From the NCBI RefSeq assembly GCF_964186625.1, contig NZ_OZ075109.1:248001-312000 (forward strand): DNA of 64,000 bases, written 5' to 3'. Every line of letters starts with the position of its first letter. The stretch's first letter is position 1. The notes below the pieces were generated by a model. It was not told where the DNA came from. It was given only the letters and a program-made list of their open reading frames with translations, and made no database searches. This document shows positions 1 to 23,217 of the stretch, in pieces. Position numbers and translations under genes: made by a program. Origin of the DNA: Asticcacaulis sp. MM231. Its GTDB lineage: Bacteria; Pseudomonadota; Alphaproteobacteria; Caulobacterales; Caulobacteraceae.

Positions 1-1251
1 CCACGCACCGTAGGGCTGCACTACCAGGTCGAGACATGGAACAACCAGCTTATCATCCTGACCGATGCTGACAGCGCCGTTGATGGGCGTCTGGTCCGTG
101 CGGATGTCTCCAGACCCGGCAAAACCGACTGGCAGGATTGGGTGCCGTATGCTGAAGGGTGCAACCTGCTCGAAATGCATCCTTTCAGGGACCACTTTGT
201 CTTGCTTCAGCGTGCCGGGGGCAAGTTAGAGGTCGTCGTCACGCAAGCCGATGGGAGGACGAAGACGATCGCCTTCGATGAAGCGGCCTATGATGTGCGT
301 GTCGCCGATAATCAGGAGTTCGCCTCCCAAACCCTGCGCCTGAGCTATCAGTCGCCGCGGACGCCGGAGCGCTGGATAGCCTACGACATGGCGACCTCGC
401 AGCAGACCGTCATCATGAGCTCCAGCGTCCCCGGTCACGATCCTCAGGCCTACGAGGTGCGGGCCTTGTTTGCCGCAGCGCCTGACGGCCAGCAGGTGCC
501 TTTGACCGTGCTGATGAAGAAGGGGACAAAGCTTGACGGCACAGCGCCACTGCTGCTCTATGGCTATGGCGCTTACGGCGTGCCTTCGGAAGCCGACTTT
601 TCCATAGCCAATATTGCTTTGGTCAACGCCGGCTGGATCTACGCCATCGCCCATGTGCGCGGCGGTTCGGAAAAAGGGCGGAGTTGGTTCCTCGATGGGC
701 GCAAATTCAAAAAACGCAACAGCTTTACCGATTTCAACGCCTGCGCCGAGTACCTGATCGCCCAAGGTTATACCGCAAAGAAGCGCCTTGTTGCTTACGG
801 GCTTTCGGCCGGCGGTCTTCTGGTCGGGGCTTCGCTGAATCTGCGACCTGATCTTTATGCCGGCGTCATCGCGCAGGTACCGTTCGTCGACATGCTCAAC
901 ACCATGTCGGATGCCACGCACCCGTTAGTGCCGGCCTTCCGGCCTGACTGGGGTGATCCGCTCGCGGACGGACAGGCCTATGATTATATCGCCTCGATCT
1001 CGCCGTATGAGAATGTCCACAAGGCGGCTTACCCGATGGTGCTGGCAACGGCGGGGGTGCGCGATAATCGGGTGAGTTATTGGGAACCGGGCAAGTGGGT
1101 GGCGGCCCTGCGTGCCCACACCACGTCCGGCAAGCCGATCCTGTTCCGCATTAATATGTCCGGCGGCCACCAGAGCAATTCGGGCCTTTCCGACGCGTTC
1201 GCACAGGCGGCGCTGTTCTGGTCGTTCGCTGAACTCAGCCTGAAATCTTAA
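1..1251 (+). CDS. Oligopeptidase B-like S9A serine peptidase, C-terminal part
   Basis: The frame is open from base 1, so the N-terminus lies outside the window; about 416 codons are visible. The end of the beta-propeller is followed by the alpha/beta-hydrolase domain. The nucleophile elbow YGLSAGG carries the catalytic Ser, AGVRDNRVSYWEP carries the Asp, and SGGHQSNSG near the C-terminus carries the His. The phrase DNRVSYWEPGKWVAALR is typical of oligopeptidase B, which cleaves short peptides after basic residues; that specificity is inferred from family. It is followed after 21 bp by an esterase and an amidase on the same strand, suggesting a small catabolic operon for peptides or amides. 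Confidence 0.9.
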   Translation, partial: PRTVGLHYQVETWNNQLIILTDADSAVDGRLVRADVSRPGKTDWQDWVPYAEGCNLLEMHPFRDHFVLLQRAGGKLEVVVTQADGRTKTIAFDEAAYDVRVADNQEFASQTLRLSYQSPRTPERWIAYDMATSQQTVIMSSSVPGHDPQAYEVRALFAAAPDGQQVPLTVLMKKGTKLDGTAPLLLYGYGAYGVPSEADFSIANIALVNAGWIYAIAHVRGGSEKGRSWFLDGRKFKKRNSFTDFNACAEYLIAQGYTAKKRLVAYGLSAGGLLVGASLNLRPDLYAGVIAQVPFVDMLNTMSDATHPLVPAFRPDWGDPLADGQAYDYIASISPYENVHKAAYPMVLATAGVRDNRVSYWEPGKWVAALRAHTTSGKPILFRINMSGGHQSNSGLSDAFAQAALFWSFAELSLKS

Positions 1252-1272
1252 CTGACGAAAGTTCCATAGCTT

Positions 1273-2277
1273 ATGATGCCACCTGTCAGCGCCTTCGGCG
1301 CCGATCTCGACCCGGATATTCGCCGTTTCATTCAGGAAACTGGCGCGGCCTACGGCGATCATCCGCCCTTCGACACGCTTTCGCCGGATGCGATGAGGGC
1401 CGTCTGCGAAGCCGTACGCACACCGTGGCGTCAGGGCGGACCGGTAATGGTGCGCACAGAAGCGTTTGAGGTCGCCACGCCGCATGGCCGCGTGAACGTG
1501 CGCCTGCTCGACCCGACACCTGCCAGCGATGCACCTAAGCCGTGCCTGGTCTATGTCCATGGCGGCGGCTGGATGCTGTTTTCGATGCAGACCCATGATC
1601 GCGTGATGCGCGAATATGCGGCGAGGGCTAGTGTCGTCGTCATCGCCATGGATTACGCTTATGCGCCGGCGGCAAAGTTTCCCGTGGCGCTGGAGCAGGT
1701 GGTGGCCACGTTGCGCTGGACGCACGACCATGCCGCCGAACTGGGCATCGATCCTGATCGTATCGCCATTGGCGGCGATAGTGTCGGTGGCAATATGTCG
1801 GTAGCGACGGCCCTGATGCTGCGCGATGTCGGCGAGGGCGATCTGCTGAAAGGCCTGATGTTGCATTACGGCGCATTTGACGATGATTCAAGCCCCGAGG
1901 ATCACATCCGCTATGGTGGCGAGGGCTATATGCTCTCCAGCGCTGAGATGGTGATGTTCTGGGACAACTATCTCAACAATGACGCCGATCATCACAACCC
2001 GCTGGCCGTGCCGATGCGCGCCGATGTGACCGGCCTGCCGCCGGCCTTTTTCACGATTCCACAGTGTGACGTGTTGAGTGGTCAGAGCAGGATAATGGCC
2101 GAGCGTTTCAAGGCGGCGGGTATCGCTACGCAAGTGGAAATCTATCCCGGCGCATCGCACAGCTTCCTTGAGGCTGTCTCGATCTCACCACTGGCTGAAA
2201 AAGCTATCCATGATGGCGCGATGTGGCTGGCCAGGTTGTTCGCGACGGTCAAGGCGGATTCCGAGGTTCCGGCATGA
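1273..2277 (+). CDS. HSL-family alpha/beta-hydrolase (esterase)
   Basis: 334 aa. It has the oxyanion-hole motif HGGGW around residue 97 and the nucleophile elbow GGDSVGGN around residue 168, the hallmark pair of the hormone-sensitive-lipase (family IV) esterases. The late Asp is in QCDVLSGQ and the His in PGASHSF. It should hydrolyse short-chain acyl esters; no substrate can be named. The stop codon overlaps the ATG of the downstream amidase (ATGA), which indicates translational coupling. Two Met codons lie together at the start, so the exact start may shift by one residue. Confidence 0.9.
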   Translation: MMPPVSAFGADLDPDIRRFIQETGAAYGDHPPFDTLSPDAMRAVCEAVRTPWRQGGPVMVRTEAFEVATPHGRVNVRLLDPTPASDAPKPCLVYVHGGGWMLFSMQTHDRVMREYAARASVVVIAMDYAYAPAAKFPVALEQVVATLRWTHDHAAELGIDPDRIAIGGDSVGGNMSVATALMLRDVGEGDLLKGLMLHYGAFDDDSSPEDHIRYGGEGYMLSSAEMVMFWDNYLNNDADHHNPLAVPMRADVTGLPPAFFTIPQCDVLSGQSRIMAERFKAAGIATQVEIYPGASHSFLEAVSISPLAEKAIHDGAMWLARLFATVKADSEVPA

Positions 2278-3653
2278 AGCTGGCCGAGGCGTTTGCGCTA
2301 GGCCAGCTTGATGGTCACGATCAGGCGGCGCTGGTACGCTTGGGCGAGGTCTCAGCTTTGGAACTCACCGAGGCGGCGATTCTGCGCATTGAGGCGCTGG
2401 ATCCGGAGCTACATGCGGTGAGCTACAGGGCCTATGATCAGGCACGGGGCGAGGCCTCGTCGCCACTCGCGGACAGCCCGTTAGCGGGCGTGCCATGGCT
2501 GGTGAAAGATTCGCTCGACTATCCTGGCATGCCAAGCTTGGGCGGTTCGCGCAGCAAGCCGGATACCGCGAAGACGTCGGCTTTTCCCTATGTCGAACGT
2601 ATTCGCGCCGGTGGCCTGATCGCCCTGGGCAAAAGCGCCATGCCGGAATTCGGCCTGCTGCCGGTTACCGAACCTTTGATTCGTTCGGCCACACGCAATC
2701 CATGGTCGGCACAACATTCACCCGGTGGTTCGAGCGGGGGCGCTGGTGCGGCGGTCGCGGCGGGTCTGGTGCCGGTGGCGCATGGTTCGGATGGCGCGGG
2801 CTCAATCCGTATCCCGGCCTCGTGCTGTGGCCTGGTGGGGCTGAAGCCGGGCCGCGGCGCTACGGTGCGGGTACGTTCTCGTCACGTCATTGAGGACCTG
2901 CTGGTTGGCGACGGCCTGATGGCGCGCAGCGTGCGTGACGTCGCCGTTGGTTTCTCATTGGCGCATACGGGGCAAATGACGCCGGCCGTGGATCGCCGGT
3001 TGCGCATCGCCGTGACCACGCGCACGCTTTCTGGTGCGCAGGCGGCGCCGGAACTGATGGCGGTGACGATCAAGGGGGCCAAGCTATGCGAAAGTCTCGG
3101 TCATCAGGTCAGCTTCGTAGACTATCCGATTGATGGCCCGGCGGCGGAAGCAGCCGAGCGTACCCTTTGGATTCATATAGGCGCCGATTGCGTCGATGCC
3201 TGCCGAGCAACGGGGCAAGACCCGGGAGCAGTGCTGGAACCATGGACCAACGCCTTGGGGCGCATGGCGGCGGCTCTGCCGGTCTCGGCACTGGAAGCGG
3301 CCTATCGTCAACTGACCGACCTGCCGCGCCAACTCGACGCTTTCCATCAGGCATACGATGTCGTGCTTTCGCCCACCCTGGCACATCTGCCGCCGCTAAT
3401 CGGCGAACAGGCCCCGACGGTTGACGGTGATACCTTGATTGAGCGTATGTTCGGATTTCTCGGTTTCACGCCGCTACAAAATCTTGCCGGAACTCCGGCT
3501 ATTTCTCTGCCTCTCTATGAGGAAAAGGAACTGCCAGCAGGTATCATGTTCGCGGGAAATCGCGGATCTGAACCGACCCTGTTGGCTCTGGCCACCGAGT
3601 TGGAGACGGCGTTGCCATGGAGAAACCGCTGGCCGATGATGTCGGTATGTTAG
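2274..3653 (+). CDS. Amidase-signature family enzyme
   Basis: About 459 aa from the ATG that overlaps the stop of the esterase gene. An upstream in-frame ATG inside the esterase is less likely. The Ser-cisSer-Lys triad of the family is visible: VKDSLDYPG (Lys), HSPGGSSGGAGAAVAAG (cis-Ser region) and DGAGSIRIPASCCGLVGLKPGRG (nucleophile Ser). The C-terminal half resembles amidases acting on small or cyclic amides (6-aminohexanoate cyclic-dimer hydrolase-like), but the substrate is not determinable. It is the last gene of the hydrolase run; a 590-bp gap follows before the lasso receptor. Confidence 0.88.
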   Translation: MKLAEAFALGQLDGHDQAALVRLGEVSALELTEAAILRIEALDPELHAVSYRAYDQARGEASSPLADSPLAGVPWLVKDSLDYPGMPSLGGSRSKPDTAKTSAFPYVERIRAGGLIALGKSAMPEFGLLPVTEPLIRSATRNPWSAQHSPGGSSGGAGAAVAAGLVPVAHGSDGAGSIRIPASCCGLVGLKPGRGATVRVRSRHVIEDLLVGDGLMARSVRDVAVGFSLAHTGQMTPAVDRRLRIAVTTRTLSGAQAAPELMAVTIKGAKLCESLGHQVSFVDYPIDGPAAEAAERTLWIHIGADCVDACRATGQDPGAVLEPWTNALGRMAAALPVSALEAAYRQLTDLPRQLDAFHQAYDVVLSPTLAHLPPLIGEQAPTVDGDTLIERMFGFLGFTPLQNLAGTPAISLPLYEEKELPAGIMFAGNRGSEPTLLALATELETALPWRNRWPMMSVC

Positions 3654-4241: not shown

Positions 4242-6782
4242 ATGTCCAACCATTACCATCCGTCTACTGTGCGCGCATCCGTCATCGCTCTCATCATCGG
4301 GGCCGCCCTCTATTCCAGTGGGGTTGCCGTCGCGGACGACCGAAAAATTGCTTTCGATATTCCGGCGGAAAGCACCGCTGCCGCGCTGAACGACCTGGCG
4401 GCCCAGGCCAATATCCATCTGCTGTTTCCCTACGATCTCGTCGCGAGCACATCCGCGCCCGCCCTCAAGGGCACCTATTCCGTTGATGAGGCGCTGACTT
4501 TGATACTGTCGGGGAGCGGCCTGGAGATCGCCGAACAGAAGGATGGCAGTATTTCCCTCCGCGTGACTGCCGGTAAAGGGGAGGCGGCGACTGAGGTGAT
4601 TGTCACTGGCAGCCACATCCGGGGCGGAAACCCGACCTCGCCCGTCCATACCGTCACGCGTGCTGATATCGATGCTTCGGGCTTTTCGCAGATTGGCGAC
4701 GTGATGCGCAGCCTGCCGGAGAATTTCGCCGGCGGCCAGAATCCCGGCGTTTTGGGGGCCTCCAACAGCAATATTGCCAATATGAACATCACCAACGCCT
4801 CGACCATGAACCTGCGAGGCCTGGGGTCTGATGCCACCCTGGTACTTGTCAACGGCCACCGTCTGGCCGCAGACAGTTCGTTTCAGGGCGCCGATATCTC
4901 CGGGATACCCCTTTCGGCCGTCAAGCGTATCGAGATCGTGCCCGACGGCGCCTCGGCCCTCTACGGATCCGACGCGGTGGCCGGTGTCGCCAATATCATT
5001 CTTCGCAGGACGTTCAATGGGGCCGAGGTCAGTGCCCGTCTGGGGACGACCACCCAAGGCGGCGGCGCGGAACAAACCTACAGCCTCCTGGCAGGCCGCG
5101 CCGGCACCGCTGGTTACGCAATGCTCAATCTGGAATATGCCAAACAGGACGCTATCCTGGCGGGCGACCGTGCCTTCGCGTCTAACGTTGCCTCGGACGC
5201 GACCCTCATTCAGCCGCAGGTGAGACGCTCGGCGTTCGTCAGTCTTGGCCGTGACCTGAGCGACGCCGTCTCGGTATCCTTGGATGCCTTGCTGTCGGAC
5301 CGGGACACGACCTATCTCAATCATATTTACAAGGACTATCCCGGTTACACCGGCTGGGCCTACACACCGGCCTTCTCTGTGACGGCCATGGTCGATGTCG
5401 CCTTGTCCGGGGGCTGGAAGGCCCATATCGCCGGCGGCGCAGCCGGCAGCCGCAACAGCACGGGCATCAGGTCCTATGGCGTGGATTACCCAAACTACAA
5501 CACCAACCACCTTCAGTATATCGAGGCGACGGCGGACGGTACCCTCATGTCCTTGCCAGGTGGTCCCTTAAAGGTCGCGGTGGGCGGAGGCATGCGCACC
5601 GAGGGCTTTCAGCAAGGCTTTAAAGGCAGCCCCAGCCTGCTGATGCCCTCAAGGCAGGTGGACTATGCCTATCTCGAAGGGCAGTTGCCCCTGATCGCGC
5701 CGTCCTCGGACCGGACCGGGCTACATGCCCTGGAACTGAATCTGTCGGCGCGCACAGAGCATTATAGCGACTTTGGATCGACGACCAATCCGCGCGTCGG
5801 TATGCGGTACGTTCCCTTCAAAGACCTGACCCTCCGGGCCAGTTGGGGCAAGTCGTTTAAGGCGCCCTCCTTCCTGCAAATGTATCAGGCGGTCACCCTG
5901 GCGCTCTACAAGCCCGGTCTTCTGGGGGGCAGCAATGACGGTTCGATCGCGATGCTCGTCTATGGTGGCAACACAGACCTGAAGCCGGAAACGTCCACCT
6001 CATGGTCACTCGGCGCGGACTACGCCCCGGCACGTATGCCGGGCCTGACGCTATCGCTCAACCTGTTCAATATCGATTACACAGACAGGGTCGTGCAACC
6101 GATCAATCCGCTAACGGCGTCCCTGTCGAATCCGCAGTTTGAGCCGTTCCTCAAGGTCGATCCGGCCACAGCGACCGTTGAAGCCCTAGTCGCCAACGCC
6201 TATTCCATGGATAACTATTCGGGCCTGACCTATGACCCGAACAAGGTCTCGGTGATAGTCTACGACAATTATCAGAATGCGACGGCCCAGACCGCGCATG
6301 GGGTGGACCTCGGCTATCGTCAGCACTTCACTCTGGGAGGCGGAGGGTTGGACGCGTTTGCCAACGCCACCTGGCTTCATCTCGAACAGCAGACCATCGC
6401 AACACAGCCGAAGGTCGGTCTGTCCGGGACCATCTTCAACGCTCCTGATTTCAAGGCGCGCGGCGGGATGACGTGGCAAAATGGCGGGCTATCCCTCTCG
6501 GGCATCGTGAACTATCTGGGCGAGGAGACCGACACCGGCGTGACGCCCAACCGCGTGATCGCGTCCTGGACTACCGTGGATATCCATCTGGCTTACAGCT
6601 TCGCGGGCCGGTCAGGTTTTGCCCAAGGCCTGAAACTAGCCCTGTCCGTCTCCAACCTCTTTGATCGCGATCCACCCTACGCGCCCAGCCCGGCCCTTTT
6701 CTACGAGGGCCTGGCGTTCGACAGCACCAATGCCTCTCTCATCGGACGTACTGTCAGCCTGACCCTGACCAAGGGCTGGTAA
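4242..6782 (+). CDS. TonB-dependent receptor with STN domain (lasso locus)
   Basis: About 846 aa from the ATG at 4242, preceded by AAGGGG. A signal peptide (residues ~1-32, ending GVAVADD) precedes an STN domain (~35-105, KIAFDIPAES...ALNDLAAQANI), then the plug (TEVIVTGSHIRG...RGLGSDATLVLVNGHRLA) and a 22-strand-type barrel with NLFDRDPPY near the C-terminus. An STN domain usually signals to a FecR/FecI pair, but none is present here. It lies 2 bp upstream of a lasso isopeptidase, as in astexin-type loci where the receptor is thought to import lasso peptide; the ligand is inferred. The start was chosen from the RBS and signal peptide; an in-frame ATG at 4167 is unlikely. Confidence 0.9.
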   Translation: MSNHYHPSTVRASVIALIIGAALYSSGVAVADDRKIAFDIPAESTAAALNDLAAQANIHLLFPYDLVASTSAPALKGTYSVDEALTLILSGSGLEIAEQKDGSISLRVTAGKGEAATEVIVTGSHIRGGNPTSPVHTVTRADIDASGFSQIGDVMRSLPENFAGGQNPGVLGASNSNIANMNITNASTMNLRGLGSDATLVLVNGHRLAADSSFQGADISGIPLSAVKRIEIVPDGASALYGSDAVAGVANIILRRTFNGAEVSARLGTTTQGGGAEQTYSLLAGRAGTAGYAMLNLEYAKQDAILAGDRAFASNVASDATLIQPQVRRSAFVSLGRDLSDAVSVSLDALLSDRDTTYLNHIYKDYPGYTGWAYTPAFSVTAMVDVALSGGWKAHIAGGAAGSRNSTGIRSYGVDYPNYNTNHLQYIEATADGTLMSLPGGPLKVAVGGGMRTEGFQQGFKGSPSLLMPSRQVDYAYLEGQLPLIAPSSDRTGLHALELNLSARTEHYSDFGSTTNPRVGMRYVPFKDLTLRASWGKSFKAPSFLQMYQAVTLALYKPGLLGGSNDGSIAMLVYGGNTDLKPETSTSWSLGADYAPARMPGLTLSLNLFNIDYTDRVVQPINPLTASLSNPQFEPFLKVDPATATVEALVANAYSMDNYSGLTYDPNKVSVIVYDNYQNATAQTAHGVDLGYRQHFTLGGGGLDAFANATWLHLEQQTIATQPKVGLSGTIFNAPDFKARGGMTWQNGGLSLSGIVNYLGEETDTGVTPNRVIASWTTVDIHLAYSFAGRSGFAQGLKLALSVSNLFDRDPPYAPSPALFYEGLAFDSTNASLIGRTVSLTLTKGW

Positions 6783-6784
6783 AG

Positions 6785-8914
6785 ATGCGCATCACGTCGT
6801 TTGCTTCACCGATCGCCCTGCTGGTCGGGCTCAGCCTCGGTACGGCCGGGGTCGCAAACTCCGCCCCTTGTACCAGCCTCCTGCCGGCACCTTCGCTGGC
6901 AGGAGACGCCAAGCGCGCCATCGTCGCTGACGACCTCTTACGGCTTAGGGACATCGGACCGAAGCACCCATCGGCGAGCGACCCCATCTTGAGCTTGTCG
7001 CCGGACGGTACACGCGTGGCATTTCAACTTCGTCGGGCCGATCCTGAGATGGATGCCTACTGTCTGGGCATGGTGGTGATGCCGCTTACGCCCGGCGGAA
7101 GACCGACCATCGTCGATACAGGCGGCGACTATATCCGCGTGCGACAGGAGATTGGCACGCTCACCAACGGGCCGAGCGGATATACTGAAATTATCACGCC
7201 CAAATGGTCGCCCGACGGCAAGGTCATCGCCTTCAAGCGCAGCGACAATGGTAGTATTCAGGCCTGGATCGCCGCTGCCGACGGAAGCGGGTCACGCGCC
7301 GTCTCCCATCTCCCTTTCGACGTTGAAGACCTGAGCTGGACACCCGATGGACTGGGTCTGATCGTAAAGGGTCGACCGGGCCTGGACGACGCGAAGCGTG
7401 CGATTCAGCGCGAAGGTGAAAACGGCTATTTGTTTGATGACCGCTTTGTTCCCTTCGACAGCAATGTACCGTGGCGTCGTAACAATGTCCCCAGGCAAGC
7501 CTATTTCATCAACGTGGAGACCGGTGAGGCCCGGTTGGCTACCGATATGGAAGTGGCGAAAAGTCTGAGTGTACGATCGACCGCCACCCCCGAAAGAGCC
7601 CTGAACAGCGTCTCAGGGCCATCCGGCCAAGTGGCTTGGACCGAGATGTCTGACCCCAAAAATGTCGCGTCGCCTGAACGCCTGGGTGTCAGCGGACCTC
7701 ACGGGAAAGTCTGGACCTGTGCGGCTGAGGTCTGTGCAGGTGCGAGGGCGGTCTGGTGGCGCGATGAGGAGACTGTCGTTTTCCAGAAACTCGAAGGCTG
7801 GGCGCGATCCGAGACCGGCCTGTACGAATGGTCTATCCGTTCAGGCAAGGTGCGGCAGATCCTCAAGACGGAGGATCTCCTCGCTGGATGCCAGATCGCT
7901 ACAGGCGTCCTGGTATGCGCCCACGAAGCCAAGGTGCAACCCCGTGATATCGTGCGGATTGATCTGACATCAAGGCGGTTAGAGACGCTGTTCGACCCCA
8001 ATCCGGAGTACAAGGCCATCGCCTTCGGACCCGTCAAACGGCTGCAGTACGTCAATAGTTTTGGGGTGCAAGGCTTTACAGACCTAGTCCTGCCGGCCAA
8101 CCGTAAGCCTGGAGATAAGGTACCGCTCGTCGTAGTACAATATCTCAATCGTGGCTTTTTGCGTGGTGGTATCAATGACGAGGTACCAATTCTCCTGTTC
8201 GCTGCCAACGGCATGGCCGTGCTCAGTTTTGAAGATTACCAGTCGCCCGGGTCCATAAAAGGCGGCCCCTCCTGGGACGCGATCACGGCTTATGATCGCA
8301 TCCACTGGCGTGGCCATCGCAGCACACAAGAGCTGCTCGAATTGGCCATCAAGCAATCGGTCGCGACGGGCGCGATCGACGAGAAGCGGCTAGGCATTAC
8401 GGGCATCAGCGCTGGGTCCAACACCACGCGCTGGGCCTTGCTGAACAGCGATCTGTTTTCTGCGGCTGTCATCGGAAGCTGTTGCGAAGACATGACCTCG
8501 ATCTTCACGGTGTACGGCGAGCAGGGTGGAAACGAAATGCGTCGTTATGGCTATCCTGGCCTGACGGCGGACGGCAGGGCCTTCTGGGCGCCATTTTCCA
8601 TGCGCCTGAACGCCGGCCGAATGAAAACACCCCTGTTGATGGAACTGGCGGATCACGAATATCTCGCGTCGCTGGAAAGCTACTTTTCCCTCAAGGAGCA
8701 GGCCGCGCCCGTCGAGATGTATGTGTTTCCAGATGAGTTTCACGAGAAGTGGCACCCCATACATCGGCGTGCACTTTACGCGCGTAATCTCGACTGGTTC
8801 ACATTCTGGCTCCTGGGCCAGGAAGACACTAATCCGGCAAAACAAGAGCAATACAAACGGTGGCGATCACTCCGCGCCAACCTGCCGGGTTCGGACGCAT
8901 CCAGAGGGAATTAG
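6785..8914 (+). CDS. Lasso-peptide isopeptidase, Atxe2-like S9 hydrolase
   Basis: 709 aa with a signal peptide (~1-26). A beta-propeller region (residues ~50-430, repeats such as SPDGTRVAF, WSPDGKVIAF, WTPDGLGLIV) is followed by an alpha/beta-hydrolase domain. GITGISAGSNTTRW holds the catalytic Ser, LMELADHEY a candidate Asp, and FPDEFHEKWHP the His. Enzymes of this type, defined by Atxe2 of the astexin system, open the macrolactam isopeptide bond of lasso peptides. Its place between a TonB receptor (2 bp upstream) and convergent lasso genes (29 bp downstream) supports that rather than a generic dipeptidyl peptidase. Export to the periplasm is predicted from the signal peptide. Confidence 0.9.
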   Translation: MRITSFASPIALLVGLSLGTAGVANSAPCTSLLPAPSLAGDAKRAIVADDLLRLRDIGPKHPSASDPILSLSPDGTRVAFQLRRADPEMDAYCLGMVVMPLTPGGRPTIVDTGGDYIRVRQEIGTLTNGPSGYTEIITPKWSPDGKVIAFKRSDNGSIQAWIAAADGSGSRAVSHLPFDVEDLSWTPDGLGLIVKGRPGLDDAKRAIQREGENGYLFDDRFVPFDSNVPWRRNNVPRQAYFINVETGEARLATDMEVAKSLSVRSTATPERALNSVSGPSGQVAWTEMSDPKNVASPERLGVSGPHGKVWTCAAEVCAGARAVWWRDEETVVFQKLEGWARSETGLYEWSIRSGKVRQILKTEDLLAGCQIATGVLVCAHEAKVQPRDIVRIDLTSRRLETLFDPNPEYKAIAFGPVKRLQYVNSFGVQGFTDLVLPANRKPGDKVPLVVVQYLNRGFLRGGINDEVPILLFAANGMAVLSFEDYQSPGSIKGGPSWDAITAYDRIHWRGHRSTQELLELAIKQSVATGAIDEKRLGITGISAGSNTTRWALLNSDLFSAAVIGSCCEDMTSIFTVYGEQGGNEMRRYGYPGLTADGRAFWAPFSMRLNAGRMKTPLLMELADHEYLASLESYFSLKEQAAPVEMYVFPDEFHEKWHPIHRRALYARNLDWFTFWLLGQEDTNPAKQEQYKRWRSLRANLPGSDASRGN

Positions 8915-8943
8915 GCATTCCCGCGTCCGGTGTGCGGCCTCGA

Positions 8944-10716
8944 TCATTCGAGCATGGTCGGGGCCGTCTTTTCCTTTCGGACGGCCTCCCAATGTCGTAC
9001 CCACGCTTCTGCCTCCGCCAGGTCAGACAGACGCATGTGGTCGAGCGGTTTGATGAGCGCGTTTGGGGCCAGCGCCTCATACACGGCCCGCGCATCGATC
9101 AGGCCCTCTTGGGCGAGCCGCCCCGTTGTCAAACGTTCGCGTACCAGGTCCTTGTGGTGTTCCATGACGGTGTAGGCGAAACTATTCGGACCGCCCTTGG
9201 AGGTGCGCTCGATGAGCGCCTTGGGGAGACGCCGGGCGAACGCTGCCCGGGCAACAGACCGGTTGCGCCCGCCAGCGATCCACTTCCACATCGGAATCCG
9301 GAGACAGGTCTCCATGACCGGTTGCGAAATCAGGGGCAAAATCTGCGGGGCATGGTCCCTCGGAAGTCCGTCAATCGTACCCTGAAGACCAGCCAGCATC
9401 GCAATGTGAGCCGCCTTGCCCGGGAGGGCGGCCTTTGGGGCGTGTAGCCAGGGATGGCTCAGCGGACTATCGCTGACGTGAGCCGCAGCGGGACCAAGGA
9501 AGCGCGTCTCACCGTGAAATCTATAGGTCGGGTCTGCGTCGACATACCGTTGAAATGCCATCCTAAAGACGGCACCGGCACTCGCATTGTTCTGATGGCA
9601 TATATCAGCGAAGGTCTGGACCAGACCCAAGCCGAGCCCTTCGCTGCGGAACCGATCCACCAGGGCCGTCGCCGATTGCGTAAAACAGAAGACGTTGTCG
9701 CCACCGATGCCGCTGAAAAAGGCATCTATACCGAGCACTTTTTCCAGTTCGAAGCGGATGCCGAAATTGCTTTGGGCAAAGGCATGACCAATAGGGCGCG
9801 GCAGGTTGGCGGACAGCGCGCGTGTGAAGTCCACCAATTCTGGGCGATGAAACGCTTCTACTAGTGGGACCTGCAACCTGTCGCGCAGGATGCGCGCAAA
9901 CGCGCGCTCATCCCCCTCCGCTTCATGGGTCGCCAGGGTCACGCAGGTGAGATCGGCGCCCGCTTCGACCAGACAGGCCGCCAGGATCGAAGAGTCCAGT
10001 CCACCGGACACACCCAGCAAACACCGCGGATACCGACCGGCCCAAGCGGCAACGCAAGAGAGGAGGGTCTCCTCAAGATGTTCGACCATCTCCGCATCCG
10101 ATTGTGCGCGGTCCGCTTGAACGAAATCCCATGGCGACCAGGCCTGAGTGGCCATCTGCACCTCAGCCCCAATGGAGAGCCGAAAACCCGCCATGACTTC
10201 CTGAACCCCGACCAGGCCCGTGTCCGGCGTACGGATATCTGGTGCATGGAGGTGGCGCCCGAGAAAGCTGAAATCGATCTCAGGGGTGAGGAAGCCTGCG
10301 GCAACCAGCACATCCACATCAGATGCAAAAAGAACGGCGCCCTCATGTTTCAAAACGTAGCAAGGCATGGCGGCAGACGGATCCCGCACGACGTGAACAA
10401 GGCCTCGGGCATCTTCGATGACGGCCACGTAGCCACCCCAATAGGACGTCAGAAAGCTCTGTCCAAGGGTGTCCCGCGCGATCTGGCTCGCCCGGTGATC
10501 CATGACCTGAACCCGCACGGAACACGGCGCGCGCGTGAACAGATCACCGACGACTGCGCCGATGCCACCGTGAAGCGGCAGCAAAGGGGTGTTCGAATGA
10601 ATCATTACCGCCGGTGACGTCACGGTCTGCGCCAGACCGATCGCACTGACGGCTCGCGAGACACGAGCCCTTCGATCGGAATCTCGCGTCACGATGGCGA
10701 TATAGCGCAGAGCCAT
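8944..10716 (-). CDS. Lasso peptide macrolactam synthetase (C protein, Asn-synthetase-like)
   Basis: About 590 aa starting MALRYIAIV, 1 nt after the stop of the B gene; a longer start at 10758 would sit inside B. The N-terminal half resembles the class II glutaminase domain of AsnB but lacks the Met-Cys start, so no amidotransferase nucleophile. The C-terminal half has the PP-loop LLGVSGGLDSSILAACL and SGIGGDNVF. Lasso C proteins adenylate the ring-closing Asp or Glu side chain and join it to the N-terminal amine. It is convergent with the isopeptidase gene. Function follows from the complete A-B-C context. Confidence 0.93.
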   Translation of the reverse strand: MALRYIAIVTRDSDRRARVSRAVSAIGLAQTVTSPAVMIHSNTPLLPLHGGIGAVVGDLFTRAPCSVRVQVMDHRASQIARDTLGQSFLTSYWGGYVAVIEDARGLVHVVRDPSAAMPCYVLKHEGAVLFASDVDVLVAAGFLTPEIDFSFLGRHLHAPDIRTPDTGLVGVQEVMAGFRLSIGAEVQMATQAWSPWDFVQADRAQSDAEMVEHLEETLLSCVAAWAGRYPRCLLGVSGGLDSSILAACLVEAGADLTCVTLATHEAEGDERAFARILRDRLQVPLVEAFHRPELVDFTRALSANLPRPIGHAFAQSNFGIRFELEKVLGIDAFFSGIGGDNVFCFTQSATALVDRFRSEGLGLGLVQTFADICHQNNASAGAVFRMAFQRYVDADPTYRFHGETRFLGPAAAHVSDSPLSHPWLHAPKAALPGKAAHIAMLAGLQGTIDGLPRDHAPQILPLISQPVMETCLRIPMWKWIAGGRNRSVARAAFARRLPKALIERTSKGGPNSFAYTVMEHHKDLVRERLTTGRLAQEGLIDARAVYEALAPNALIKPLDHMRLSDLAEAEAWVRHWEAVRKEKTAPTMLE

Positions 10717-10717
10717 G

Positions 10718-11377
10718 TCACACCACCAGAATAGGTGTGTAGGCTGAGACCTGCTCAACCGTATCGTTTAAAAGGGTGTCTCCGTCCTGGACCCAGGCGT
10801 GCGCGCCAAACGGCATCATGCGAACACCCAGCACCAGGTTTGGATAGTAGCCATAGGCGCTGAGATAACGCACCATCGCGATCGACCAGCGAAGACATTC
10901 ATTCTGCCCAGAGATAAAGCGCCGGGACGCCAAATATCGCAGGGTTATATGGCTGAGCGTGTCGCCATCCACAGGTGGGGCGTGAGAGGCCTTTCGGCAT
11001 TTATGTTGGCGGATATCGGAAATTATGTCGTTCAAAGGCCGATGCTTCAGATCGTGCCGTGCCTGGATCTGCGCGAAGACAGGGAACAACGGAGGGAGCA
11101 AAGACAGACTAGCGCTCTGCTGGGGCAGCCGACTGGAACGGGCAGGTGCAAGGGCCACCTGCTGACGGGGGGCGCCCGCTTCACTTTGAACAATAAGCCC
11201 AGCGGTCATCAGTTTGGACGTTGTCGCCGGGTCCAGACCCTTGCCGTTAAACCAGTCCTGAACGGCGGCATCCGTCGCGGTGGGAAGGGCAAAATACCGG
11301 TCGGCGGCCAGATCGAGCACGACGACACGACCGTTGGCGACGCATCCATACACGTCCGTTCGGAAAGCAAATGCCAT
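10718..11377 (-). CDS. Lasso peptide B protein (RRE fused to leader peptidase)
   Basis: About 219 aa from the ATG at 11377 (MAFAFRTDV); an in-frame ATG at 11392 adds five residues and has no better RBS. Residues ~1-80 resemble the PqqD-like RiPP recognition element that binds the leader. The C-terminal ~110 residues are the transglutaminase-like cysteine protease: NECLRWS (Cys), FGAHAWVQ (His) and LLNDT (Asp). It should remove the leader of the two precursors so that C can close the ring. Fused B1/B2 is the usual proteobacterial form. It follows precursor 1 after a terminator-like hairpin, and its stop is 1 nt from the C start. Confidence 0.93.
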   Translation of the reverse strand: MAFAFRTDVYGCVANGRVVVLDLAADRYFALPTATDAAVQDWFNGKGLDPATTSKLMTAGLIVQSEAGAPRQQVALAPARSSRLPQQSASLSLLPPLFPVFAQIQARHDLKHRPLNDIISDIRQHKCRKASHAPPVDGDTLSHITLRYLASRRFISGQNECLRWSIAMVRYLSAYGYYPNLVLGVRMMPFGAHAWVQDGDTLLNDTVEQVSAYTPILVV

Positions 11378-11405
11378 GCTGATACCGCCCATAAAAATGA
11401 AGAAA

Positions 11406-11428
11406 GGGCAGCGCTACCCGCACTGCCC
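11406..11428 (-). terminator. Attenuator-like hairpin between precursor 1 and the B gene
   Basis: On the - strand GGGCAGTGC pairs with GCGCTGCCC (nine pairs, one G-T) around the 5-nt loop GGGTA, and is followed by TTTCTTCATTTTT. This is a rho-independent terminator shape sitting 7 nt after the precursor 1 stop and before gene B. It would let precursor mRNA exceed processing-enzyme mRNA, as in other lasso operons. Confidence 0.7.
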
Positions 11429-11435
11429 CACCTGT

Positions 11436-11567
11436 TTAGTCATGGCTCAGGCCAGGGTTAGGCTTGTGCTGGAGGGCATCATCTGCCTGGAACTGGGTCT
11501 GCATGCCCTTGGTCTCGGTACTTACGGCACCAAGGTCGATGACGTCTTGAGGTTCGATTTTGGTCAT
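11436..11567 (-). CDS. Lasso peptide precursor 1 (astexin-like)
   Basis: 43 aa. The leader is MTKIEPQDVIDLGAVSTETK (20 aa), with the D-L-G-x2-S-x-E-T-K ending of proteobacterial lasso leaders; Thr is the penultimate leader residue. The predicted core begins Gly-Met-Gln-Thr and is 23 aa: ring GMQTQFQAD closing Gly1 to Asp9, then a 14-residue tail ending PGLSHD. Astexin-1 also has a 23-residue core with the ring Asp at position 9. The RBS is weak (GAAAGCAGC). It is close in sequence to precursor 2, so the pair is a duplication. The core and ring are predictions. Confidence 0.9.
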   Translation of the reverse strand: MTKIEPQDVIDLGAVSTETKGMQTQFQADDALQHKPNPGLSHD

Positions 11568-11684
11568 GGTCGCTGCTTTCAGTTTGTGAGAAGCTATGCC
11601 GGCGACAATCTGTCGGCGGGATGAGCTTTTCGGAGATGAGAGGAAATGCGGAGAACGGGATCAGTACTGTCCTCCGCCGGGTGA

Positions 11685-11822
11685 TCAGTCGTTGCTCAGA
11701 CCGGGTTGCCGCAGGTGCTGGGCGACTTCGTCGGGCGCGAAGATGGTTTGATTGCCCTTGGTTTCGACCGACGCGTTGCCCAGGTCGATGAGGTCTTCGG
11801 ATTCATGATCGAACTTGGTCAT
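11685..11822 (-). CDS. Lasso peptide precursor 2 (astexin-like)
   Basis: 45 aa. The 22-aa leader opens MTKFDHESEDLIDLG and ends SVETK. The predicted 23-aa core has the ring GNQTIFAPD (Gly1-Asp9, with Pro8 before the ring Asp as in astexin-1) and a 14-residue tail ending QPGLSND, close to the GLSAD end of astexin-2 as recalled. A strong RBS (AAAGGAG, 6 nt before ATG) makes it the better-translated of the two precursors. It is the first gene of the transcript toward precursor 1, B and C. The 117-bp gap to precursor 1 has no terminator. Confidence 0.92.
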   Translation of the reverse strand: MTKFDHESEDLIDLGNASVETKGNQTIFAPDEVAQHLRQPGLSND

Positions 11823-11891
11823 GACAGTCTCCTTTGTCAGTTTTGAAAAGCCATGGAAATTCATGGCCTTTCGACTGTACGACCGGTGAAA

Positions 11892-11923
11892 TTTGATCCC
11901 AAACTGATCTTATTCTGATCAAA
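11892..11923 (-). promoter_or_regulatory. Candidate operator of the lasso precursor promoter
   Basis: Three TGATC words start at 11894, 11905 and 11916, exactly 11 bp apart. The outer edges form a perfect inverted repeat TTTGATC/GATCAAA (11892-11898 and 11917-11923). It lies 70-100 bp upstream of precursor 2, where an activator or repressor site would sit. The GntR regulator encoded just beyond is an obvious candidate, but binding is inference. Confidence 0.5.
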
Positions 11924-11939
11924 CGATTATCACGTGACC

Positions 11940-11963
11940 CCTCAAAATCTGAAATTTTTGAGG
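11940..11963 (-). terminator. Hairpin after the GntR gene
   Basis: CCTCAAAA (11940-11947) pairs with TTTTGAGG (11956-11963) around an 8-nt loop, directly after the GntR stop. It lacks a downstream T run on -, so it is at best a weak terminator separating gntR from the precursors. Confidence 0.35.
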
Positions 11964-12572
11964 CTACTGACCGTAGGCCAGAGCAATGAAATTTGGCACC
12001 AGGGCCAGGCGTCGATGGTGATAGCGTTTCACGAGATCCCGAAGTGAGCCCAGATCGTGCGCCTCCCACGCCGCCTTGAATTCGGCCATCTCGGCTGGCA
12101 GGTCGATGAGGTTGCCGGTGTCTAGTTGCCGAAGGGGGCGCAGACGGTCGTTGACGTTAGCGATCGCATACCGTGTCTCGCTGGTGTCGCTGAAATCGGC
12201 GATCGCCAGGAAAAGGGCTTCTGTGGCCGCCACGATATCGGCCTGATCCAGGTTCAACTCCGGAAAGTGTGGCGCAGGCCCGTTGTCCATGGCGGTCTCA
12301 ATCGCCAGCATCAGGATCATTTTATTCCATTTGTGGACATCGCGGACGCGGCGCTCCTTCGCGGCCGGAATGACGTATCCCTCATGTGGCGTGATATCGA
12401 CCACGCGTTCGCCGATCATGCGGTTGAGTAATAAGCGTATCGGCATGGTGCTGACGCCGTAGCGTTGCGACAGGGCTTCGATATCTATCCGTTGGCCTGG
12501 CTGGAGCGGCGCCGACAACAGGTGCGGCCGCAGATCACTATAGATGTGTTCAATACGAGACGGCTTGCCCAT
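11964..12572 (-). CDS. GntR-family transcriptional regulator
   Basis: About 202 aa from the ATG at 12572, which has AAGGA 8 nt upstream; longer in-frame starts (12659, 12686) lack this. Residues ~5-70 form a winged helix-turn-helix (SRIEHIYSDLRPHLLSAPLQPGQRIDIEALSQRYGVSTMPIRLLLNRMIGERVV), the GntR signature with the usual wing. The C-terminal half is helical and FCD-like but short and divergent. It is co-directional with and directly upstream of the lasso precursors, so local control of the locus is likely; the ligand is unknown. Confidence 0.8.
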   Translation of the reverse strand: MGKPSRIEHIYSDLRPHLLSAPLQPGQRIDIEALSQRYGVSTMPIRLLLNRMIGERVVDITPHEGYVIPAAKERRVRDVHKWNKMILMLAIETAMDNGPAPHFPELNLDQADIVAATEALFLAIADFSDTSETRYAIANVNDRLRPLRQLDTGNLIDLPAEMAEFKAAWEAHDLGSLRDLVKRYHHRRLALVPNFIALAYGQ

Positions 12573-12730: not shown

Positions 12731-13063
12731 TCAGTTCAACGGTGACAGGCGATTGGCGACCTGGGCGGCAATCCCCTCGCGGCGCTCGTAATAGGCTGCC
12801 AATTCCCTTTGCAGCCCGCGTTTGTCCTTACGGCGCCAGCAATCGAGCATGCGTTGATATTCCGCCTCCCGATCCGGCAACATCTCGGCCTCGTAGGCGC
12901 GGATCGCCAGTGTCTCTTCCCGCAGCAATGATATGCTCGTCTGCAGCAGCGGGTTATCCGCAGAGTCGATGATGTCCTGGAACAACCGATCTACGGCCTC
13001 GCCGACGTCGAAGGCGGGTGCGTCGGCTGAGGTGGCCCCTGAAGACGGCGGTCGCTGTGTCAT
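12731..13063 (-). CDS. Short FCD-like protein, possible remnant of a GntR regulator
   Basis: 110 aa with a good RBS (GGAGG, 9 nt before ATG). From residue ~35 it resembles the last helices of FadR C-terminal (FCD) effector domains: NPLLQTSISLLREETLAI...DREAEYQRMLDCWRRKDKRGLQRELAAYYERR. No DNA-binding domain is present. It may be a free-standing effector domain or a degraded regulator at the edge of the conjugative module. Just upstream lie a CTTG/CAAG hairpin (13095-13113) and an inverted repeat AAGCATT/AATGCTT (13111-13136) that could be a binding site. Confidence 0.6.
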   Translation of the reverse strand: MTQRPPSSGATSADAPAFDVGEAVDRLFQDIIDSADNPLLQTSISLLREETLAIRAYEAEMLPDREAEYQRMLDCWRRKDKRGLQRELAAYYERREGIAAQVANRLSPLN

Positions 13064-15781: not shown

Positions 15782-16027
15782 ATGGACGACGAAATTACGC
15801 GTGCCGCCCTGGCACGAAAGGGTAGCCCTTACTTAAATACCCAGCAGGCTGGCCATTATCTCGGCCTTTCATCGAAGACATTGCAACGGTTGCGGATCAC
15901 CGGCGGCGGCCCGGCTTTCCGAAAACTGAGCTGGACCATTCGCTACCATATCGATGACCTGAAGGCGTGGTGTAAGGCGGAAGCCCTCATCAAGATTCCC
16001 GAAAAGCCAGAATGGGATGACATGTAA
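15782..16027 (+). CDS. AlpA/excisionase-like helix-turn-helix protein
   Basis: About 81 aa from the ATG at 15782; upstream in-frame codons lack homology. YLNTQQAGHYLGLSSKTLQRLRITGGGPAFRKLSWTIRYHIDDLKAWC is the compact MerR-like HTH of the AlpA/excisionase (HTH_17) family. Such proteins act as excision factors or activators of mobile-element genes. The stop TAA overlaps the start of the next gene (ATGTAATG), so it is co-translated with the TraF-like peptidase. Confidence 0.82.
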   Translation: MDDEITRAALARKGSPYLNTQQAGHYLGLSSKTLQRLRITGGGPAFRKLSWTIRYHIDDLKAWCKAEALIKIPEKPEWDDM

Positions 16028-16560
16028 TGCTGCGCTGGCAACCCCGAAATCACGGGCCCTCAGGCTCGAAATCCGCGCGCCTCTACGGCAAAATCTCCGC
16101 GATTGCCATCGGTGCTCTGTCACTCTCTGGCCATCCCGGAACGCCCGCTCTGGTCTACAATCCAAGTCCAAGCGCGCCGCTCGGCTACTATCGCACCTTA
16201 CCCGCCCGCCCGCTGATGAGAGGCGACTGGGTGCTTGTAAGAGCGCCGAAAGCGGCCAGACAGTTGGCGGATCAACGCGGCTATTTGTCCGCGTCTGTGC
16301 CCATGATCAAAACTGTCGTCGCCCTCGCTGGGGATCGCATTTGCGCAAGCGGCTCCCTGATCTACGTCAACGGTGCGATGATTGCGGCCCGCTTACACGT
16401 TGATCATCACGGACGGCCTTTGCCATGGTGGACAGGATGTCGGACCCTGGGAGCGAACGATGTCTTTGTCATCAACCGGTTCTCTCCCAGTTCATTTGAC
16501 GGGCGCTACTTTGGCGTCGTCTCCCGAGAGGCTGTGCTGGCCCGGTTGGTGCATTTATGA
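16027..16560 (+). CDS. TraF-like S26 conjugative signal peptidase
   Basis: 177 aa. An N-terminal membrane segment (~20-35) is followed by NPSPSAPLGYY with the catalytic Ser, and VPMIKTVVALAGDRI with the catalytic Lys of the S26 family; VFVINRFSPSSFDGRYFGVV is the late conserved block. In RP4-type systems TraF processes and cyclises the TrbC pilin, and a trbC gene is present 8 kb downstream. It overlaps the lytic transglycosylase gene by 4 bp (ATGA). Confidence 0.88.
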   Translation: MLRWQPRNHGPSGSKSARLYGKISAIAIGALSLSGHPGTPALVYNPSPSAPLGYYRTLPARPLMRGDWVLVRAPKAARQLADQRGYLSASVPMIKTVVALAGDRICASGSLIYVNGAMIAARLHVDHHGRPLPWWTGCRTLGANDVFVINRFSPSSFDGRYFGVVSREAVLARLVHL

Positions 16561-17177
16561 CCCGTGCGATGCGCTTGTCAGTGCTTTCTGCCGCCATTGC
16601 CTTGGTGGCATTCCCGTTTACGTCTATGGCAATCGAAGCGGCCACAGACGGGGTTTCACACACCGAAATCCTGTCGCGCTGGCATGCGGAGATCGCCATC
16701 GCCGCCCAGCGATTTTCCATACCGGAAGCTTGGATTGCTGCGGTTATAGGGGCGGAAAGCAACGGGCAGACGGAGGTCGGCGGCAGACCCATCACCTCAC
16801 CAAAAGGCGCGATGGGGCTGATGCAGCTCATGCCGCCTACCTACGCCGAGATGCGCCGACTTTACGGTTTGGGTGATGACCCGTACGTGCCCGGCGACAA
16901 CATTCTCGCCGGGGCCGCTTACCTGCGTTTGAACCTCGACCGCTTCGGATATCCCGGCCTGTTCGCTGCCTATAATGCAGGGCCAGAGCGATACGCCCGC
17001 AGCTTGAACGGCCACGGACTGCCTGCGGAAACGCGCGACTATCTGCGCAAGGTGACCAGAGCGACCACCGCCCAGGCCCCTGCACCTGACAGCATTTTCG
17101 TGAATTTAGGCGATCCGGTGGCGCCCTCGGAATCCTCCGTCGTGCCCTCGGTTTTTGTCCCCCTGACCATACCCTGA
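16557..17177 (+). CDS. Lytic transglycosylase of the conjugation system (TrbN/VirB1-like)
   Basis: 206 aa with a signal peptide (~1-26). The SLT domain covers ~40-150: AWIAAVIGAESNGQT with the catalytic Glu, GAMGLMQLMPPTYAEM, DNILAGAAYLR and LFAAYNAGPERY. It should cut peptidoglycan locally for the transfer channel. It is coupled to the TraF-like gene by an ATGA overlap. The gap before the relaxase (157 bp) is AT-richer and could hold an origin of transfer, but no nick motif was recognised. Confidence 0.9.
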   Translation: MTRAMRLSVLSAAIALVAFPFTSMAIEAATDGVSHTEILSRWHAEIAIAAQRFSIPEAWIAAVIGAESNGQTEVGGRPITSPKGAMGLMQLMPPTYAEMRRLYGLGDDPYVPGDNILAGAAYLRLNLDRFGYPGLFAAYNAGPERYARSLNGHGLPAETRDYLRKVTRATTAQAPAPDSIFVNLGDPVAPSESSVVPSVFVPLTIP

Positions 17178-17334
17178 AAATGAGCACAAAATGAGAACTG
17201 AGTGAAGGCAAGATAAAGGCTCAACTCCCGTTTCGCTTAAGGGTTTGTCTGCACATCGGTTTTAGGGATTTACGAAAATTGTTTGGAGTTAAATCGCGGT
17301 AACTGGCTGAAATCATTAGATTGTGGGTTTTGTG

Positions 17335-19299: not shown

Positions 19300-19385
19300 C
19301 AGCTTTCACATCAGGGGCGATGTTTAGGCGAAAGGACGGTTGCCCGTATGAGAGGCCAGCCACCCGTCATTTTATTGGCGCCCCG

Positions 19386-20249: not shown

Positions 20250-20862
20250 TGGAGGTCAGGGCTTCCAGGTACGGCGCTATGATTTTGACCGCGCCGCCAT
20301 GTCTCGCCGCCTCATAGATGTCAGATGGCGTCACTTTGCGTTGGGTCAGCGCAGATTTTAGGCTCTCGATAGCGATGGATCTATCCACCAGTCGCGGGTT
20401 ACGGAAGACGTCTGCCAGCGTTCTGGCAATGGAGTAGATCGGTACGTGAACGCCGGAGATCGTATGGGTTTCAACGCCATCGCGAAAGGAACCGGATTTA
20501 AAGCGCACCAGTCGTATCGGTGGCGAACGCACGTCAGGCGCCCAGGCGCCCTTGGCAATGGCCACCCAAACTCTACGGGGCATCTGGTCTGTCAGGCCAT
20601 GAAAGGCCAGGGCGGAGGTCATGGAGATAATGCCGTTGGGGATTTGTTTGGCAATTTCAGCCAAAGCGTGGTCGTTTTCCAGTTCACTATCACGACTTCG
20701 GTAGAGGCCACGAGCGACCCGACCGATGAGACCGCTGGCCTCGGCACGGGCGATCGTTGCGGATGTGATACCTTGAGCCCTCAGGTCATACGCCCGCACA
20801 AGCGGTTGGGCTTCAACGATAGCCTTCAGGCGTTGCTGCTGCGTGGCGGCCAGGGGCTGCAT
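20242..20862 (-). CDS. AbiEi-type antitoxin / autorepressor
   Basis: 206 aa. The N-terminal winged helix (~10-60: AIVEAQPLVRAYDLRAQGITSATIARAEASGLIGRVARGLYR) is of the AbiEi_4 kind; the C-terminal domain contains ISMTSALAFHGLTDQMPRRVWVAI and VPIYSIARTLADVF. AbiEi antitoxins both neutralise AbiEii and repress their own promoter through inverted repeats. Such a repeat overlaps its start codon. The start sits in the repeat with only a weak AGG upstream, so a leaderless or slightly internal start is possible. Confidence 0.88.
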   Translation of the reverse strand: MQPLAATQQQRLKAIVEAQPLVRAYDLRAQGITSATIARAEASGLIGRVARGLYRSRDSELENDHALAEIAKQIPNGIISMTSALAFHGLTDQMPRRVWVAIAKGAWAPDVRSPPIRLVRFKSGSFRDGVETHTISGVHVPIYSIARTLADVFRNPRLVDRSIAIESLKSALTQRKVTPSDIYEAARHGGAVKIIAPYLEALTSNG

Positions 20863-20911
20863 GATACAAAACCTATAACTGATTATCTTTCAGGTATATG
20901 TTTTGTATCAT
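20861..20911 (-). promoter_or_regulatory. Inverted repeat at the abiE promoter
   Basis: ATGATACAAAAC (20861-20872) and GTTTTGTATCAT (20900-20911) are perfect 12-bp inverted repeats 27 bp apart; the inner copy overlaps the abiEi start. Known AbiEi proteins bind paired inverted repeats at their own promoter, so this is very likely the autorepression site. Confidence 0.75.
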
Positions 20912-23216: not shown

Positions 23217-23217
23217 C

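Follow-up and report, generated by a model that had tools for sequence, protein, structure and literature searches.

The DNA analysed here (the window) is a stretch of 64,000 nucleotides from Asticcacaulis sp. MM231 (contig NZ_OZ075109.1, positions 248,001 to 312,000). Between positions 4242 and 13063 it carries a predicted cluster for two lasso peptides together with putative control elements. The purpose of isopeptidase-type lasso peptides is puzzling, as the cell makes a knot and also carries the enzyme that undoes it, and control elements common to such clusters hint at how the cell sets production and what it senses. The following features were assigned, partly by comparison with the public genome of Asticcacaulis sp. 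AC466 (NZ_AWGE01000008.1).

4242..6782, plus strand: TonB-dependent receptor with STN, plug and barrel domains, predicted to take up lasso peptides (Pfam scan)
6785..8914, plus strand: AtxE2-type lasso peptide isopeptidase (NF033523, 747 bits, cut-off 400; alignment with PDB 5txc)
8944..10716, minus strand: lasso cyclase C, asparagine-synthetase-like, with an SGGLDSS motif (PF00733; sequence)
10718..11392, minus strand: lasso B protein with a C-terminal B2 transglutaminase-like peptidase (NF033537, 72.9 bits, cut-off 33; PF13471)
11436..11567, minus strand: precursor A1, core GMQTQFQADDALQHKPNPGLSHD (NF033522, PF24178, core conservation against AC466)
11685..11822, minus strand: precursor A2, core GNQTIFAPDEVAQHLRQPGLSND (NF033522, PF24178, core conservation against AC466)
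11829..11834, minus strand: Shine-Dalgarno sequence AAGGAG of A2 (sequence; kept across leaders)
11845..11872, minus strand: leader hairpin; GCCATG (11867-11862) pairs with CATGGC (11855-11850) in the core stem, which extends outward to 11 bp
11874..11879, minus strand: putative -10-like box TACAGT, ending about 6 nt before the hairpin (fixed spacing across 50 leader rows)
11892..11923, minus strand: candidate GntR operator, GATC-containing repeats TTTGATC...GATCAAA (from relatives)
11897..11902, minus strand: putative -35-like box TTGGGA, 17-nt spacer (sequence)
11964..12572, minus strand: GntR regulator, winged helix-turn-helix plus FCD-like C-terminal domain (PF00392; structure model and PDB fold matches)
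12731..13063, minus strand: H, a 110-residue stand-alone paralogue of the GntR C-terminal domain without helix-turn-helix (profile, tree, Pfam)

PMC9266682 gives the usual order of isopeptidase-type clusters as GntR, precursor, B and C, plus isopeptidase, TonB receptor and a sigma/anti-sigma pair, and the same architecture was recognised in named plasmid clusters. In the window, B, C and an AtxE2-type isopeptidase lie beside the precursors, a GntR gene lies ahead of them and a TonB receptor is present; the adjacency of B, C, isopeptidase and receptor, already noticed in a preliminary description of this DNA, was confirmed by Pfam and NCBIfam matches. The STN domain of the receptor scored 27.8 bits, just below the Pfam cut-off of 28.4, and the receptor as a whole shared 91% identity with its AC466 counterpart at a ratio of nonsynonymous to synonymous rates (dN/dS) of 0.115. 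The isopeptidase aligned with the AtxE2 structure 5txc at 462 bits, and S527, E610 and H638 of AtxE2, the Ser/Glu/His triad as given in PMC9266682, corresponded to S542, E625 and H653 (residue numbers counted on the alignment). The N-terminal part of the B protein is presumed to bind the leader. Above its cut-off, the AtxE2-type isopeptidase occurred in 14 of 25 Asticcacaulis genomes. Speaking against the assignment, no sigma/FecR gene was found in the 4.2 kb next to the receptor among the long open reading frames (ORFs) scanned there (142-3653; peptidase, hydrolase and amidase), and of the eight FecR matches in the host genome none of the six listed falls inside the window. The pair is not strictly defining, however, since none is listed in another cluster (L119, incomplete gene table) either. 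We therefore regard the locus as almost certainly a benenodin/subterisin-family, isopeptidase-type lasso peptide cluster of Asticcacaulis, a classification made by sequence comparison. Together with the control by hairpin, GntR and H proposed below, this is the best overall explanation, and we put its probability at about 85%. As a member of its family the locus is unremarkable; attention is due to the leader hairpin and, to a smaller degree, to H. Both were absent from the preliminary description, which ended at 12572, the ATG of the GntR gene, and did not name that gene.

The two minus-strand precursor genes proposed there were borne out by coordinates, translation and family-model scores. 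A1 (43 residues) consists of the leader MTKIEPQDVIDLGAVSTETK and the core listed above, A2 (45 residues) of the leader MTKFDHESEDLIDLGNASVETK and its core. As had been described, both cores are 23 residues long with Gly1 and Asp9; both leaders carry Thr at position -2. Benenodin-family precursors have Thr at leader position -2, Gly at core position 1 and Asp or Glu at core positions 7-9, and both precursors conform to the Thr-2/Gly1/Asp9 pattern. Scores of 38.1 (A1) and 45.1 bits (A2) with NCBIfam NF033522 (benenodin; cut-off 33) and of 45.8 and 55.4 bits with Pfam PF24178 (Subterisin; cut-off 27) lie above the curated cut-offs, indicating that neither is a chance ORF. Relative to AC466, the A1 core showed six synonymous and no nonsynonymous changes and the A2 core two synonymous and one nonsynonymous change, which suggests that the cores are maintained by selection. 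We predict that the products form with Gly1-Asp9 rings; core 1 carries Asp10 besides Asp9, but to our knowledge there are no ten-residue lasso rings. The monoisotopic masses predicted for the two lasso products are 2516.150 and 2488.209 Da, each 18.011 Da below that of the linear core. The expectation of two new products held in part. Neither core string was found in the open-licence literature searched, and the PDB gave a best match at an expectation value (E) of 1.5 for core 2 and no match at E ≤ 10 for core 1; yet the A1 core is already encoded letter for letter in AC466, where the A2 core is 22/23 identical (F6Y). Two more database proteins (P0004, P0005) carry related A2 cores, and family precursors already bear automatic names in several plasmid records. 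A precursor search over 385 genomes drawn evenly from the class yielded only the window, so that plasmid records were used for wider sampling. Of 24 distinct Asticcacaulis cores, every one has D, E or N as its last residue and 14 close with the pattern G[LIV]xxD, with variable ring and loop; the shared tail end may be recognised by the receptor or the isopeptidase.

The most enriched 6-mers ahead of the first precursor in 20 clusters were CATGGC (17/20) and CCATGA (14/20), the two arms of one short inverted repeat. Within the genus set of 21 clusters (the window and 20 other Asticcacaulis lasso loci), a hairpin of 5-12 bp, mostly 6-7 bp, precedes the Shine-Dalgarno sequence of the first precursor in every case; in the window it lies between the promoter and the Shine-Dalgarno sequence of A2. 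A plain MAFFT alignment of the 21 leaders had 97.7% of 132 cells paired, with five of the seven pairs changed on both sides and 10 cells doubly changed. None of 500 shuffles reached any of these measures, and slides gave 18-51%. Three leaders (L053, L056, L070) have different stem letters with pairing kept, and where about 2.5 kb separate GntR and precursor (L054) the hairpin stays with the precursor. The stem formed in all five leaders that were folded. Rfam (4227 models) gave no match over the whole window at gathering thresholds and none at E ≤ 1 in 11600-12100, and no description of the hairpin was found in the open-licence literature searched. A reading as an upstream ORF was set aside: both the window and AC466 (L051) have the ATG within the hairpin in the reading frame of A2, but this was not seen as a general feature. 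Nor is a shared hairpin before second precursors supported, as eight such leaders had no common element (hairpin scores 9-16), although a similar hairpin may still occur there. Two of them (L060, L062) carry the stem TGAGCC/GGCTCA with differing loops directly before the Shine-Dalgarno sequence, possibly a second, unrelated leader hairpin.

To follow the element beyond the genus, a covariance model, R1, was built from the 21 genus leaders. On 25 whole genomes (at most 150 candidates scored per genome) the top 21 matches were the training leaders and the next had E 1.2e-3, and on 299 whole genomes the sole further match below 1e-3 was a lasso leader (G193, 8.5e-5). A held-out set comprised 17 precursor loci from 17 of 19 family genomes outside the genus (G156 and G157 gave no locus); on these short loci R1 marked 12 of 17 at E ≤ 1, each match ending at the precursor ATG. 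Of 20 plasmid records with hits, 13 were used; two of their loci (L124, L125) repeat the DNA of L102 and L094 and were counted once. Among the 11 non-repeat plasmid loci, two scored below 1e-3 and seven at E ≤ 10; for ten sphingomonad loci the counts were one (L115) and six. Since R1 does not reach far in sequence, support for the wider claim comes from scanning, without any model, 50 leader rows (L105, with unclear start, left aside), or 48 loci after removal of the two repeats. Between -50 and -15, Watson-Crick hairpins scored at least 12 in 45/48 loci and at least 14 in 38/48, spanning two orders; nine of the ten sphingomonad loci reached 12. The same thresholds were reached by 12.2% and 4.9% of mononucleotide shuffles, by 9/48 and 2/48 of the adjacent stretches (-90 to -55) and by 47 and 27 of 133 other genes of the same loci. 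Fisher tests of leaders against other genes gave 3e-13 and 6e-13, values that are overstated because the loci are related. Finally, 22 of the 30 loci outside the training set were taken, and their 17 matches were aligned to R1 (L105, L114, L116, L118, L119 and L123, unmarked or at E > 1, and the two repeats were omitted). In this alignment, which is model-fitted and holds R1-found loci only, 98.9% of 94 cells were paired and 12 were doubly changed.

Doubly changed cells with pairing kept suggest selection on pairing. One could suppose instead that the hairpin is an ordinary 5' stem-loop without specific role, kept by descent, as 47 of the 133 other genes have a hairpin of score at least 12 in the same place; given its presence in 45/48 leaders and the 10 and 12 doubly changed cells, we hold this to be improbable. 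Several observations nevertheless weigh against a dedicated element. Taken singly, 5 of the 21 genus leaders had a hairpin score that over 5% of shuffles also attained; a score of 16 was reached by 54/251 other ORFs versus 17/21 genus leaders, and three of the eight second-precursor leaders (L060_2, L061_3, L062_2) have score-16 hairpins with unrelated letters. Folding of whole leaders did not outdo shuffles in every case, with z values of -2.5, -0.9, +0.9, -2.2 and -0.5. In whole genomes (E ≤ 0.05, stricter filters) R1 recovered one of the 17 held-out loci, and four other matches at 1e-3 to 0.03 were not lasso loci. On all 13 plasmid loci R1 gave nine matches at E ≤ 10 and four below 1e-3, two of these being repeats, and three of the 48 loci (L068, L094, L118) missed a hairpin score of 12. 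Neither the removal of repeats nor the weak recall of R1 changes the odds that we give the hairpin, since the claim stands on the model-free counts together with the covariation in the genus.

Of the R1 matches at E 1e-3 to 0.1, L106-L109 and L137 were inspected as possible missed lasso clusters, and none was lasso; L106 had one weak 58-residue C-like match some 6 kb away. In two genomes (L107, L108) the matched palindrome, TCATGAAATTTCATGA, precedes an antitoxin-like ORF (MTEHQPREKF...) and is perhaps an autoregulatory operator. Microcin J25 mcjA (L126) has, by eye, an imperfect inverted repeat farther from the start codon, from which we draw no conclusion.

Counted from the hairpin, a TANNNT box recurred, with the A placed at -11 (32 of the 50 rows) and the T at -7 (33 rows; the hairpin start of L103 was set by hand), and the distance from hairpin to ATG varied among genus leaders. 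The fixed spacing behind the -10-like box predicts a transcription start at the first base of the hairpin, which would probably form the 5' end of the mRNA. The fixed promoter spacing would, however, suit a palindromic DNA operator at +1 as well, bound by GntR or another regulator and acting as DNA only, and this is the main rival. Compensatory changes would also preserve a palindrome, and palindromes do precede genes, as before the antitoxin-like ORF mentioned above. What argues for RNA is, first, the variable spacing of the half-sites (loops of 3-7 nt). Secondly, one-sided changes in the core stem favour G-U: the outer six genus pairs had seven G-U and no non-pairs, and the outer six pairs of the held-out, model-fitted rows had four G-U and one non-pair of unstated letters. 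Thirdly, most genus stems keep GCCATG or a near variant despite GntR recognition helices that differ widely within the genus, and separate upstream repeats track the GntR type instead (by eye). Two results count on the side of the operator: the innermost genus pair had three non-pairs and two G-U, and an unrestricted symmetric hairpin search, in which A-C was allowed too, gave 16 G-U versus 14 A-C. That search was uninformative as a test of RNA against DNA, and the strand asymmetry is accordingly limited to the aligned core stem. On balance we find a purely DNA-level operator unlikely and action as RNA the better-founded expectation, although far from certain. The more specific proposal that the hairpin serves as a 5' stabiliser rather than in another RNA role would be the simplest, but it is tentative and drawn by analogy with the ompA leader, in which a 5'-terminal stem-loop slows mRNA decay.

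The candidate binding site of the regulator lies further upstream. The GATC-containing repeats are common to AC466 (GntR 87% identical to that of the window) and, in altered form, to L054 (GntR 67% identical), and other GntR types accompany other upstream repeats (by eye); the repeats at 11892-11923 are thus a candidate GntR operator. The idea that the hairpin is one more GntR operator is disfavoured, as within Asticcacaulis stem and recognition helix are uncoupled and the upstream repeats are coupled (by eye). In the GntR protein itself, PF00392 detected the winged helix-turn-helix with 39 bits (cut-off 27). Pfam FCD gave no match line at sequence level; the structure model (predicted local distance difference test, pLDDT, 86.9) found as best PDB fold matches GntR-family regulators, FCD types among them.

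Upstream of the GntR gene, H is similar to the C-terminal half of the GntR protein of the cluster and lacks a helix-turn-helix. Its profile matched 9 of the 21 Asticcacaulis cluster loci, and a tenth copy (G017) lies about 13 kb from the precursor, beside a broken GntR. The G017 cluster (L068/L110) is decaying: receptor, isopeptidase and GntR frames are broken, precursor and hairpin remain, and about 12 kb separate precursor from GntR. Matches above 100 bits were found in 10 of 299 Caulobacteraceae genomes (at most 15 candidates scored per genome); each of these is an Asticcacaulis genome with the match next to a lasso GntR. The remaining matches in the list sit in frames of at least 140 residues, mostly of GntR length, with the exception of a 105-residue frame in G273. 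FCD scores for H were 16.8-20.1 bits in four of five copies (cut-off 24.3), covering later parts of the domain, and the fifth (L069) gave none. Its restriction to nine genus loci plus the displaced copy and the absence of the helix-turn-helix would suit a functionless, decaying remnant of a duplicated GntR gene. Against such decay, the frame is open over 109-128 residues in 9/9 aligned loci, dN/dS with the 85% identical AC466 copy is 0.126, and the copies fall on one side of a tree branch (support 92/89), by which a single origin is not yet proven. We judge a remnant rather unlikely and suggest, with some reserve, that H is a partner or competitor of GntR that acts on it.

These assignments would combine as follows. 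By analogy with relatives, B would remove the leader and C would join Gly1 to Asp9 in a ring around the tail, which would yield two 23-residue [1]rotaxanes. The lasso peptides, perhaps ligand-loaded, would be retrieved by the receptor, and the isopeptidase would open the ring and return the linear peptide. GntR would control the A2-A1-B-C operon at the GATC repeats over the -35 region. With transcription starting at the hairpin's 5' base, the precursor mRNA would open with a stem-loop; like that of ompA, it may keep the mRNA end double-stranded, prolong its lifetime and raise precursor over enzymes. H may pair with GntR through the FCD-like domain and modulate it.

A different role, as narrow antibacterials rather than retrieved carriers or signals, would agree with the narrow-spectrum activity of astexin-1 described in PMC9266682. 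The same source presents other known isopeptidase-type peptides as lacking antimicrobial activity, the cluster includes a receptor together with an isopeptidase, and a scan of 19 window proteins (a subset of the ORFs) from 142 to 20249 found no ABC exporter; the MacB-type ABC transporter at 47305-49308 is far away. We consider an antibacterial role quite unlikely. A bolder, joint proposal can be made: isopeptidase-type lasso operons of Caulobacterales and Sphingomonadales might have in common a dedicated RNA element at the 5' end of the transcript, through which precursor synthesis is controlled (by protein binding or pathway feedback, for example), and Asticcacaulis might have added an FCD subunit without DNA-binding domain, which would detect the linear peptide on its return, or the cargo of that peptide, and adjust GntR in a loop of making, retrieving and sensing. 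In this full form it is a long shot. The hairpin sits in the native leader, which is omitted from foreign-promoter constructs; it marks the start of the first precursor gene and is readily testable, and H, a regulator paralogue without DNA-binding domain, suggests a second control input.

Beside the lasso cluster, 16027-31455 encodes an S26/TraF-type peptidase, an SLT protein, a DUF3363 relaxase, a type IV secretion system coupling protein, TrbE/VirB4 and CagX/TrbG, with an AbiEii-type nucleotidyltransferase (type IV toxin-antitoxin family) at 19386-20249 within this conjugative stretch. Several sphingomonad lasso clusters also adjoin tra or trb genes, which suggests that conjugative elements carry clusters of this kind along. 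At 35126-39756 lies a second TonB receptor, with a phospholipase C-type phosphoesterase after it. In the prolyl-oligopeptidase ORF at 142-1251 the N-terminal propeller part is mostly missing in frame (model positions 321-411 of 414).

Among known regulators, the GntR protein is most like the FCD-type members (FadR/VanR group; best fold E. coli McbR, 4p9f), with which it shares a winged helix-turn-helix and an all-helical C-terminal domain, but the best-match TM-scores are about 0.5-0.6 and the Pfam FCD sequence match is missing. Among known clusters, those of A. excentricus bear on the label "astexin-like" of the preliminary description. One of their cores (L063) we take to be astexin-1 and those of L060 and L062 to be astexin-2 and -3. 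All three have, like the predicted products, a nine-residue ring with Asp9; both A. excentricus clusters have the hairpin, and the astexin-2/3 cluster also has two precursors and H. By sequence, the ring rule of astexin-1 (nine residues, Asp9) and its length of 23 residues were matched as the description had it, and so was its remark that the cores differ from the astexins: 3/23 and 4/23 residues are shared with the presumed astexin-1 core, and 3-11/23 with the three astexins overall. The label is thus apt in a broad sense, but the family models name benenodin and subterisin, and similarity to the astexin-1 core is lacking.

Sphingomonad plasmid clusters, e.g., that of Sphingobium indicum pCHQ1 (L114), have GntR-A-B-C facing isopeptidase and TonB receptor as in the window, and 9/10 have a hairpin of score at least 12 before the Shine-Dalgarno sequence. 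Unlike the window, most have a sigma/FecR pair beside the receptor, and their stem letters differ (GCTGC/GCAGC, CGCGC/GCGCG); H was searched in Caulobacteraceae only. In two of them (L116, L117), genes for LuxR, acyl-homoserine-lactone synthase and a phytanoyl-CoA dioxygenase-like protein adjoin GntR; in a third (L118), the stretch available holds the phytanoyl-CoA dioxygenase-like gene and GntR only.

The cluster of A. benevestitus (L052), whose core is presumably benenodin-1, agrees with the window in its NCBIfam precursor family, isopeptidase, receptor, GntR and leader hairpin (GCCATGAATGGTCATGGC). It differs in that one precursor and, with the H profile, no H were found, and its core shares 8-9/23 residues with those of the window. 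The benenodin-1 ring has 8 residues according to PMC13352647, compared with the predicted nine here. The AC466 cluster (L003/L051) has the same genes in the same order, H included. Identities are 91% for the receptor, 88% for the isopeptidase, 87% each for C and GntR, 85% for H and 80% for B, and the synonymous divergence of GntR (1.27) is well above that of the other genes. The A1 core is identical in both clusters, and the A2 core differs by F6Y only.

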